Origin: Methanococcus maripaludis C5
Lineage (GTDB): Archaea; AGJL01; Methanococci; Methanococcales; Methanococcaceae
Assembly: GCF_000016125.1 (NCBI RefSeq)
Contig: NC_009135.1
Span: forward strand, 496,001-560,000
DNA: 64,000 nucleotides
Reading direction: 5' to 3'
A model generated the notes under the pieces. It was not told where the DNA came from. It was given only the letters and a program-made list of their open reading frames with translations, and did no database searches. Within the stretch, counting starts at the first letter, position 1. Every line of letters begins with the position of its first letter. A program made the position numbers and the translations under genes. Shown piece by piece: positions 53,347-55,626 of the stretch.

Positions 53347-54603
53347 ATGGTACTTTTAAAAAATGGAAAAATTGTATCTGACGATAATATGATGGAATCA
53401 GATATTTTAATTGAAGATGGGATAATTCAAAAAATTGAAAAAAATATTGATTATTCTGGTGAAACAATTGATTTAAAAGGAAATTATGTTTTTCCCGGGT
53501 TTATCGATTCTCACGTTCATTTTCGTTGGGGAAATCCCGAAAAAGAAGATTTTGTGTCCGGAAGCGAAGCTGCAATTGCAGGCGGGGTTGTTTATGCAAT
53601 AGATATGCCAAATAACACGCCTCCTGTGACTACAAAAGAAATATTTTACAAAAAAATGAAAGAAGGAAACGAAAAAAGCAAGATAAACTTGTATTTTGCT
53701 TACGGGGTTACTGAAAATAACTATTTAGAAAATGTCGAAGAAGCGAAATTTTATAAAATTTTTATGGTAAAATCAGTCGGCGACCTGTTTATAAGCGATT
53801 ATTCAAAATTAAGGGTAATTCTTGACCAAAATAAGATTTTTGCAATTCACGCAGAACACAAAAATATAATTTCAGAATGTTCGGAAAAATACGAATTAAA
53901 TAGTTTCGAAAATCACTGTAAAATTAGAAGTCGAGAAAGCGAGATTGAAGCAGTTAAAGAAGTTTTAAATGTTTTACAAAAAATTGATAAAGAAAGTAAA
54001 AATAAACCTCACGTTCATTTCTGCCACATTTCAGTTAAAGAAGCGCTTGAATTAATAAAAAATGCCAAAAAAACTCTTAAAAATGTAAAAGTAACTGTTG
54101 AAGTTAGTCCTCACCATTTATTTTTAAATTCAAAAATGGCTGAAGATCTGAAAGGTTGTGGAAAATTCAACCCTCCATTAAGGGAAGAATTAGACAATTT
54201 GGCATTATTAAATGGAATTATCGATGGAAATGTTGACGTTGTTGCAACTGATCACGCACCGCATTTACTTAACGAAAAATTAAATCCTGTGGAAAAATGC
54301 CCTTCAGGAATTCCCGGGATTGAAACACTTGTGCCATTGATTATGGATTTGGTAAACGAAGGAAAAATTTCAATTTTTGATGCGTACCGAGTTTTATCAA
54401 AAAATCCTTCAGAAATTTTTAAAATAAATAATAAGATTGAAATTGGAAATAGCGCAAATATGACTGTTGTCGATATGGGCAAAGAATACAAAATATCTGC
54501 CAAAGATTTTAAGTCAAAGGCTAAATTCACGCCTTTTGAAGGAAAAACTGTTAAAGGAAAGCCTGTTGCAACATTGGTTAATGGGAAGATATATATATTA
54601 TAA
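53347..54603 (+). CDS. pyrC: Dihydroorotase
   Basis: Amidohydrolase of 418 residues closing carbamoyl aspartate to dihydroorotate in pyrimidine synthesis. Metal ligands are visible: DSHVHFRWG (HxH), IHAEHK, HFCHIS and ATDHAPHL (the last Asp). [15 protein letters not shown]-like KFNPPLREE is also family-typical. ATG at 53347 is preferred over GTG at 53338, as TGTGGG then serves as ribosome site, though this is a weak decision. It begins 21 bp after the pseudouridine synthase gene, so co-transcription is likely. Its end overlaps the trp promoter. Confidence 0.93.
54588..54600 (+). promoter_or_regulatory. Probable trp operon TATA box
   Basis: AGATATATATATTA overlaps the last codons of pyrC. A start about 26 bases on (near 54620) would give a leader transcript of about 30 bases before the leader-peptide ATG. 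A second TATA-like string (ATATATAA, 54625-54632) is too close to the leader peptide unless that message is leaderless. Confidence 0.5.
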
Positions 54604-54652
54604 TCTTTCTAAAACATACTATAATATATAAAATTTAGAACGGTGGTAAAAA

Positions 54653-54748
54653 ATGACGTATCGGTTGGAACAGTCGGAAATAAATGTCGAATCATTCTGT
54701 AAATTAAGTTCATTTGAAAGTGTTGTTTTATTCCAGTGGTGGCAGTAA
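54653..54748 (+). CDS. Candidate trp leader peptide
   Basis: Short frame of 31 codons upstream of trpC. It begins MTYRLEQSEINVE and ends VVLFQWWQ-stop; the tandem Trp codons are at 54737-54742, two codons before the stop at 54746. The ribosome site GGTGGT (54642-54647) has the ideal spacing of five to six bases. Trp is the rarest residue, so two adjacent Trp codons in a 31-codon frame directly ahead of the whole tryptophan operon strongly suggests a translated sensor of Trp-tRNA supply. This is inferred from sequence; no homologue was compared. Confidence 0.7.
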   Translation: MTYRLEQSEINVESFCKLSSFESVVLFQWWQ

Positions 54749-54799
54749 TCACTGTGTAATTTGTTAGTGGACGCTATAGTCCGGTTAATTAGTATTTTT
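54734..54799 (+). promoter_or_regulatory. Candidate trp attenuator helices and T-run
   Basis: Three mutually exclusive short helices can be drawn. 1:2 pairs CAGTG 54734-54738 (overlapping the Trp codons) with CACTG 54750-54754. 2:3 pairs CACT 54750-54753 with AGTG 54766-54769, extended by wobble pairs. 3:4 pairs GGAC 54769-54772 with GTCC 54779-54782. A TTTTT run at 54795-54799 follows. The order matches regions 1-4 of a classical attenuator, but helices are only four to six pairs and region 2 lies close enough to the Trp codons to be covered by a stalled ribosome, so the exact mechanism may differ. Confidence 0.5.
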
Positions 54800-54936
54800 G
54801 CAGTTGTTATCAAGAATTTAAAGATATCAGTATAGTTAATATCAATATATCTAACAATACGGATGAATATAAAAATTCTAAGTATCGACTACACGGTTTA
54901 TCAATTTAATTAAGATTTAAATTTTAGAGGGCAATT

Positions 54937-55626
54937 ATGACCATAAATTTTAAAAAGCAGGCAAATGCCATAAAAAATTTTGACAAAAACCCAATCATTG
55001 CGGAAATCAAAGTTCATTCTCCAAAATATGGCGATTTGTTGAAAGGAAGATCTGAAATGGATATTTTAAGAATATACGAAGAAGCAGGGGCAGTTGGAAT
55101 TTCATATATTACAGATAAGCAGCATTTCAATGGAAACTTTGACGTTTTTAGAAAAATCTGTGAAAATACCGAACTTCCAGTTTTAAGAAAAGATTTTCTA
55201 ACAACAAAAGACGAAATCGAAAAAACAGCAAGTGCTGGTGGAAGCACAGTTTTGATTATTACAAGATTATTGAAAGAAAAAACAGCAGAATTTGTAGATT
55301 TTGCACTTGAATGCGGGCTCGATACTCTTGTTGAAGTTCATAACACAGAAGAAATTGAAATTGCGAAATCTACGAACACAACAATGATCGGAATAAACAA
55401 TAGGGATATTTCAAAATTGGAACTCGATGACGGAACTGTTTCATTAACTGAACAACTTGCAGATTTAATTCCAAAAGACAGAATTCTTGTCAGCGAAAGT
55501 GGAATTGCTAATTTAACTGATTTAAAAACCGCATTAAAATATGCAGATGCCGCACTAATTGGAACATCATTCATGACGGCCGAAAACCAAAAAGAGTTCG
55601 TAAAAAGTTTTGTTGGGGGAAAATAA
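54937..55626 (+). CDS. trpC: Indole-3-glycerol phosphate synthase
   Basis: TIM-barrel enzyme of 229 residues closing the indole ring in tryptophan synthesis. PIIAEIKVHSPKYGDL near residues 19-34 replaces the usual EIKxxSPSxG, VLRKDFLT is the catalytic Lys segment (near 85-92), and VSESGIANLTDL with DAALIGTSFM binds phosphate. It is a little shorter than the usual 245-260 residues, lacking part of the N-terminal helix. First structural gene of the operon; its stop overlaps the trpD start by one base or so. Confidence 0.95.
   Translation: MTINFKKQANAIKNFDKNPIIAEIKVHSPKYGDLLKGRSEMDILRIYEEAGAVGISYITDKQHFNGNFDVFRKICENTELPVLRKDFLTTKDEIEKTASAGGSTVLIITRLLKEKTAEFVDFALECGLDTLVEVHNTEEIEIAKSTNTTMIGINNRDISKLELDDGTVSLTEQLADLIPKDRILVSESGIANLTDLKTALKYADAALIGTSFMTAENQKEFVKSFVGGK

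Follow-up and report, generated by a model that had tools for sequence, protein, structure and literature searches.

The region ahead of the trp operon of Methanococcus maripaludis C5 carries a short ORF that ends in tandem Trp codons and which, as judged from sequence comparisons, is a real leader ORF with control codons for Trp, conserved in the Methanococcaceae and specific to trp. We consider it very probable that this ORF is translated and serves as a Trp-sensing leader. The whole region is probably the trp operon leader and a Trp-sensing leader-peptide attenuator that acts by premature termination, and the output is also more probably termination than translation or RNA stability. We infer that the ORF is translated, that ribosomes stall on it and that transcription ends prematurely, as well as the direction of this response. 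The element appears to work like a leader-peptide attenuator and is not assigned to the bacterial trpL family; the kind of Trp sensor present at this locus looks like one so far known from bacteria.

The leader ORF ahead of trpC

The window analysed was the whole stretch of 64,000 nt, in which the leader and the genes behind it are arranged as follows.

54583 to 54600, plus strand: box A (BRE/TATA), proposed leader promoter, GGGAAGATATATATATTA, matrix score 13.3
54642 to 54647, plus strand: GGTGGT, Shine-Dalgarno (SD)-like site of the leader ORF, from the sequence
54653 to 54748, plus strand: leader ORF of 31 codons, translation MTYRLEQSEINVESFCKLSSFESVVLFQWWQ, with the tail VVLFQWWQ before the stop codon
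54737 to 54742, plus strand: tandem Trp codons 29 and 30 (TGG TGG), proposed control codons, kept in 7/7 same-genus leaders
54927 to 54931, plus strand: GAGGG, SD-like site of trpC, from the sequence
54937 to 55626, plus strand: trpC, first gene of trpCDEGFBA, matching NF001376 (indole-3-glycerol phosphate synthase) with 368 bits
55626 to 61075, plus strand: trpD, trpE, trpG, trpF, trpB and trpA, from the ORF order (trpE assigned by NCBIfam, the rest recognised from their translations)

The leader ORF lies between a dihydroorotase-like gene, which ends at 54603, and trpC, and the distance from the leader stop to trpC is 188 nt here (G000) and 135-273 nt in the other genomes. The box A matrix was built on 15 sites that precede tRNA genes in this genome, one mis-registered site (score -12.8) included, and by this matrix 54583-54600 is among the best 0.002% of all positions in the window. 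The start of leader transcription predicted from box A falls near 54617-54623. An attenuator is expected to have a short ORF with start signals between the promoter and the first structural gene, and this is the arrangement found here. The Trp-rich end of the ORF is rare: WW or WxW was present in the last six residues of 2 of the 926 window ORFs of 15-70 codons, the leader included, and two of the last three codons of the leader ORF encode Trp versus 3 of the 2,056 codons in the seven trp genes downstream. The strongest signal at the locus is this ORF around the helices, rather than the helices and the T-run on which the earlier note had centred.

A second promoter between the leader and trpC is a doubtful candidate: the best box A-type site there scored only 3.0 in G000, though 8.0 in the relatives G018 and G019. 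A TATATAT-rich motif at 54843-54851, TATA-like and lacking a BRE, is located in the same spacer and appeared by eye to be conserved in several genera; it is possibly a weak internal promoter. The trp gene order reported for M. maripaludis is trpCDEGFB1A1, and the same order is reported for Thermococcus kodakarensis (PMC1854888).

Conservation, trp specificity and a second copy

Both trpC and trpE were present in 36/36 Methanococcales genomes and the two genes adjoin in 11 of them. A Trp-rich leader was found before trpC in 11/11 genomes with this adjacency, which represent three genera (7/7 genomes of the same genus, 3/12 of genus g2 and 1/1 of g3). Control codons for the pathway's own amino acid, which are expected of an attenuator, are thus conserved in 11/11 leaders. 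No credible leader was detected at any of the 19 loci scanned among the 25 genomes in which trpC is not next to trpE, or before trpE at 20 loci, one of which (L046) came from the 11 adjacency genomes. In nine g2 genomes (L013-L021) trpC is separated from trpE, follows unrelated genes and is without a Trp leader.

The same-genus leaders end, immediately before the stop codon, in VVLFQWWQ, VVLFQWWH or VVLSQWWH, the segment VVLFQWW being identical in six of seven and VVLSQWW in the seventh. The corresponding tails are SNVAWRW, SNVAWRWW and SNVSWRWCGFL in g2 and ILKWGWCF in g3, and the Trp codons persist between genera despite the divergence of both nucleotide and peptide sequences. The frame is open in all seven same-genus leaders, leader indels keep it, and a GGTG is present a short way ahead of the start in 9/11 leaders, with AGTG in the remaining two. 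In L003 (G016) the start codon of the leader is GTG, not ATG. Outside the tail, the differences were distributed over the codon positions as 35/37/36, without third-position bias, and 53 non-synonymous versus 12 synonymous pairwise codon differences were counted in four sequences (the M. maripaludis-like ones and G017). The peptide body seems free to vary, as that of a leader would, which is no independent proof of translation. As no amino-acid constraint was evident outside the tail, the claim of translation rests on the open frame, the start signals and the Trp codons.

The regions upstream of hisG, pheA and ilvB (up to 500 nt, seven genomes each) contained no His-, Phe/Tyr- or Ile/Leu/Val-rich ORF that reached the thresholds. 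Of 80 trpC-like loci from named genomes, mostly Archaeoglobales and Methanomicrobiales and not all with trpC as the first operon gene, only Methanothermococcus L087 had a credible leader, and this is the leader of G029. Taken together, the negative results with the other operons and the scan of the 80 loci suggest that the leader is trp-specific and confined to Methanococcaceae as examined. In addition, several candidates were discarded. The ORFs ending in WW near trpC in Archaeoglobaceae (L096, L098 and L099) owe their end to the SD/start region of a divergent RNA-polymerase-subunit-like gene, and the W-rich short ORFs at the remaining loci, inspected by eye, were inside other genes, lacked start signals or were single cases. 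A W-rich ORF of five codons, MLWYW, was observed at L023. The Rfam families Trp leader and T-box, which we take to be the relevant family names, had no match at E<=10 in 54500-55100, and TGTACA, presumably the TRP box of TrpY, was absent from 54550-54940.

When a 101-nt core of the leader was searched against the DNA of the seven same-genus genomes, the operon leader was recovered in 7/7, and G018 and G019 each had a second site (L074, G018:C2 near 392634, and L075, G019:C2 near 276903, both on the minus strand). The putative leader ORF at this second locus, which lacks an obvious start codon, ends in FLFQWWH and is followed by CGCTATAGT and then by a second trpB and a trpA-like gene. The TrpB encoded there is 74% identical to TrpB of the window operon and scored 627 bits to TIGR00263, and the TrpA has diverged (90.6 bits, under the family cut-off of 102.35). 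The CGCTATAGT element is common to the trp-operon and second-locus leaders, at unequal distances from the stop, and the second-locus leaders are devoid of the arms of the helix designated 2:3 below. The Trp-codon leader ORF that the earlier note had placed before the trp operon is borne out across three genera and is duplicated together with trpB. A transporter gene of the NSS family is located beside the second leader; it was rejected as a leader-linked gene, because G020 has the transporter without the leader, trpB and the trpA-like gene.

The pattern CARTGGTGGCANTAR occurred nine times in the seven same-genus genomes, every time in a leader before trp genes. Elsewhere in the order it occurred twice, both times inside other genes, and the reversed control pattern was not encountered at all; the matches in G004 and G023 were set aside as they are located inside other coding genes. 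The g2-type sequence was found without mismatch in three trp operons only, with one two-mismatch match elsewhere and one control match. A covariance model retrieved the seven operon leaders with E <= 7.2e-21, the second copies with E of 0.00175 and 0.054, and seven weaker matches. Five of these weak matches, outside the trp loci, were inspected and are no leaders: none of the five had TGGTGG, and two were in other genes. The sequence GCTATA (54773-54778), within CGCTATAG, recurs as a loop at two trp loci (L069/L070) whose stems are unlike, and from this recurrence a protein-binding role or a tertiary contact would be possible.

RNA helices and U-tracts of the leader

The arms of the helices described in the earlier note are present at the positions it gave (CAGTG at 54734-54738, CACTG at 54750-54754, AGTG at 54766-54769, GGAC at 54769-54772 and GTCC at 54779-54782), as is the run TTTTT, and the first arm does overlap the Trp codons 29-30 of the leader ORF. 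The helices exceed that first description (7, 5 and 5 pairs for 1:2, 2:3 and 3:4, respectively).

54734 to 54740 with 54748 to 54754, plus strand: hairpin 1:2, 7 pairs in 7/7 sequences, -7.5 to -7.9 kcal/mol
54749 to 54753 with 54766 to 54770, plus strand: weak alternative helix 2:3, 96.7% of cells paired
54768 to 54772 with 54779 to 54783, plus strand: hairpin 3:4 with the loop GCTATA, 5 pairs in 7/7 sequences
54795 to 54799, plus strand: T5 run, candidate archaeal U-tract terminator, from the sequence

In hairpin 1:2 the 5' arm extends across the Trp codons, and the stop codon lies within the loop and the 3' arm. The mutual exclusion proposed for the helices was confirmed for helix 2:3 at its full length, which excludes both 1:2 and 3:4, but 2:3 and 3:4 shortened by 1-2 pairs can coexist. 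Mutually exclusive helices, one of them across the control codons, are a feature of attenuators that is found here in geometry alone.

Covariation was assessed in an alignment (A2) of seven same-genus sequences, six of them distinct, which represent essentially two clades. The covariation that had been expected of the helices was detected for hairpin 3:4, where two pairs have changes on both sides, all cells are paired (six distinct sequences), three pairs vary (C-G/U-G/U-A, G-C/G-U and A-U/G-C) and the loop is nearly fixed. It was not detected for hairpin 1:2, in which 6/7 pairs are invariant. In helix 2:3 one A-U/G-C pair has changed on both sides, with a score equalled in 113/500 shuffles, and an A-C mismatch breaks this helix in G020. 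The covariation score of 1:2 and 3:4 was reached in 10/500 shuffles of these few and related sequences. As the alignment consists essentially of two clades, the covariation rests on few events. The folding energy was near chance, with z of -0.96 for 54722-54812, 22/500 shuffles equally stable for 54734-54783 and z of -0.9 to -1.9 across the seven species, and the stability of the 331-nt leader was not above that of shuffles (z 0.45), which reveals no obvious sequestering structure. The energy of hairpin 3:4 ranged from -3.9 to -6.5 kcal/mol. For helix 2:3 the value was -1.3 kcal/mol in G017 and the M. maripaludis-like clade, two relatives reached -4.2, and G020 gave +1.3.

A ribosome footprint of 13 nt past the first A-site base, a value known from bacterial toeprints, was assumed in the folding calculations, in which both probabilities and energies are equilibrium values. 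In 7/7 sequences the probability of helix 2:3 was 0-0.01 without a ribosome. When the ribosome was placed on the first Trp codon and the RNA reached 45 nt from arm 1, so that arm 4 was still missing, it was 0.76-0.88 in 6/7. At 50 nt the same six sequences gave 0.42-0.90 for 2:3 and 0.75-0.97 for 3:4, and at 62 nt helix 2:3 was down to 0-0.34 in 7/7. Once arm 4 was out, with the ribosome still at the first Trp codon, the probability of 3:4 was 0.60-1.0, the exception being the long forms of G017 (0.35-0.54), and 3:4 formed either alongside 2:3 or in its place. According to these predictions helix 2:3 may form in passing without keeping 3:4 from folding, which leans against the antiterminator role that such a helix would have in an attenuator. 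Thus, a switch of the E. coli type is not supported, because 2:3 is weak and transient, early at best and broken in G020, and 3:4 is predicted to form regardless; the alternation of 1:2, 2:3 and 3:4 could not be upheld as the working part of the leader. The caveat that a stalled ribosome would also cover arm 2 applies to a wait at the second Trp codon; if the A site is occupied by the first, the assumed footprint ends at about the start of arm 2. Pairing of arm 2 with GCAGU just past the T-run was also considered and rejected, as it turned up in the predicted folds from three M. maripaludis-like genomes and G020 and not in those from G017, G018 and G019.

Termination at U-tracts by aCPSF1 is reported as established for M. 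maripaludis (PMC8716108, PMC7515710); in Methanococcus, tracts of 4-7 U are described as terminators, and a hairpin is not strictly needed at archaeal terminators (PMC8716108). A U-tract of terminator length, U5, is indeed present in the leader. It is separated from the end of hairpin 3:4 by about 12 nt, whereas in a bacterial intrinsic terminator the U run comes right after the hairpin. The first run of T4 or longer after the first Trp codon lies at +58/+59 in four genomes, at +73 in two, and at +23 and then +72 in G020; a T4-T5 run between +58 and +73 is thus common to all seven same-genus genomes. In the relatives a T-run is located at +15 in the three g2 leaders and at +11 in g3, where, with the assumed footprint, a ribosome that had reached the stop or the later Trp codons would cover it wholly or mostly. 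As a background value, T5 was present within -2 to +15 at 219 of the 3,712 window stop triplets in any frame. In the g2 and g3 leaders L007, L009, L010 and L012 the first Trp codon is preceded by a T6-T7 run at 25-28 nt and followed by a T5-T6 run at 11-15 nt. Exposure of the U-rich RNA had been suggested in the earlier note as the controlling event; in our predictions, however, it did not respond consistently to ribosome position, and a U-tract exposure gated by folding was rejected because the pattern differed between sequences. Since there is no common response of exposure to ribosome position, the output step is one that we infer. In M. maripaludis, hairpins in 5'UTRs are reported to reduce transcription, an effect that an RNA chaperone relieves (TRAM0076 paper, PMC6705878).

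Proposed mode of action and rival explanations

The trpL leader of E. coli is a ribosome-mediated transcription attenuator. The leader studied here resembles it in several respects: a short leader ORF precedes the trp operon, its tandem Trp codons form part of the 5' arm in the first hairpin, and a further hairpin and a T-run follow downstream. It differs from trpL in its archaeal host and RNA polymerase, in the position of the Trp codons almost at the stop, in the weakness of the antiterminator-like helix 2:3, in the gap of about 12 nt between 3:4 and the T-run, and in that there is no Rfam match in 54500-55100 and no sequence kinship shown. The principle of trpL-type attenuation has been described in PMC1183508.

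We propose that a ribosome on the 31-codon ORF would report the supply of Trp-tRNA through its wait at the Trp codons before the stop. With ample Trp, the ribosome would finish and leave, hairpins 1:2 and 3:4 would form, and the untranslated 188-nt spacer with its U-tract would be free; RNA polymerase would then mostly terminate at the free U-tract with the help of aCPSF1 (FttA). Under Trp shortage, the ribosome would pause over the Trp codons, with the polymerase a short way ahead, holding hairpin 1:2 open, and would hinder hairpin folding or the loading of aCPSF1, and transcription would continue into trpC. A simple model with aCPSF1 attacking the RNA uncovered by a stalled ribosome would make starvation raise termination, which is the wrong sign for a biosynthetic operon. 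With a little less than even confidence, we suggest that the locus might be a case of archaeal amino-acid-specific, ribosome-controlled attenuation, in which, within the Methanococcaceae, the ribosome waiting at Trp codons gates the access of aCPSF1/FttA to the untranslated, U-rich part of the leader RNA, transcription-translation coupling and not an E. coli-type hairpin switch is the sensor, and a copy of the element has arisen at a second trp locus.

The mutual exclusion of aCPSF1/FttA and the ribosome has been stated as a hypothesis (PMC11616081), and coupling is the subject of a review (PMC8116511). An untranslated leader RNA with U5 of terminator length resembles the aCPSF1 (FttA) U-tract termination of M. 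maripaludis (PMC8716108, PMC7515710, PMC11616081), which differs in being known at 3' ends and intra-operon sites (PMC10450193). An amino-acid-controlled use of this termination was not found in the available portions of these four papers. Archaeal trp operons are regulated by Trp through TrpY and its TRP boxes in Methanothermobacter, and trp operon control is also known for TK0271 (Tar) in T. kodakarensis (PMC6737238). Unlike the leader, however, TrpY is a DNA-binding repressor, whose TGTACA box is missing here, and TK0271 is a DNA-binding activator, without a leader peptide in the available description (PMC6737238). Searches of the open-licence literature, subscription papers and preprints being outside this scope, turned up no archaeal amino-acid operon for which a leader-peptide attenuator is described. 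The uORF4u paper notes in general terms that uORFs regulate genes in archaea too (PMC10219788), and ribosome profiling of M. mazei is reported to have revealed small ORFs that had not been annotated, of which 10% lie in 5'UTRs (PMC11456600). If the proposed attenuation is true, codon-based attenuation extends beyond bacteria, and a native leader with Trp codons, in a methanogen amenable to genetics, would be a natural coupling reporter that reveals whether archaeal ribosome-polymerase coupling is close enough for gene regulation and whether aCPSF1/FttA and the ribosome are mutually exclusive.

The ribosome stalled at the Trp codons could instead alter the translation of trpC or the access of ribonucleases. 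The same leader evidence applies to such a translational or RNA-stability output, the SD-like site of trpC is short, and the spacer has no single terminator geometry across genera. However, the distance from the leader stop to trpC is far for direct coupling and the z value of the 331-nt leader (0.45) also speaks against this output, which we regard as unlikely. It is highly improbable that hairpin 3:4 with the CGCTATAGT loop region is the site of an RNA-binding protein and the leader peptide is secondary: although CGCTATAGT is shared by the two kinds of leader at differing distances from the stop, and stem 3:4 covaries around a nearly constant loop, the motif is missing from relatives that retain the Trp codons, and the Trp codons are left unexplained.

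The 20-bp dyad CACT-N4-AATT-N4-AGTG at 54750-54769, whose half-sites have changed together to CGCT/AGCG in G018 and G019, might be read as an operator bound by a Trp-responsive DNA-binding protein. Yet in G020 a base is inserted and only one half has changed, the second-locus leaders and the other genera lack the dyad, and TGTACA does not occur in 54550-54940; we find this operator more improbable still than the protein site in the RNA. About as improbable as that protein site is an arrest peptide of the TnaC type, in which the VVLFQWW tail would stall the ribosome on free Trp. The constancy of this tail within the genus, together with FLFQWWH at the second locus, would fit nascent-chain arrest, but other genera retain the Trp residues only (NVAWRW, ILKWGWCF). 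Moreover, the conservation of the VVLFQWW tail can be explained at the RNA level, because the tail overlaps hairpin 1:2.
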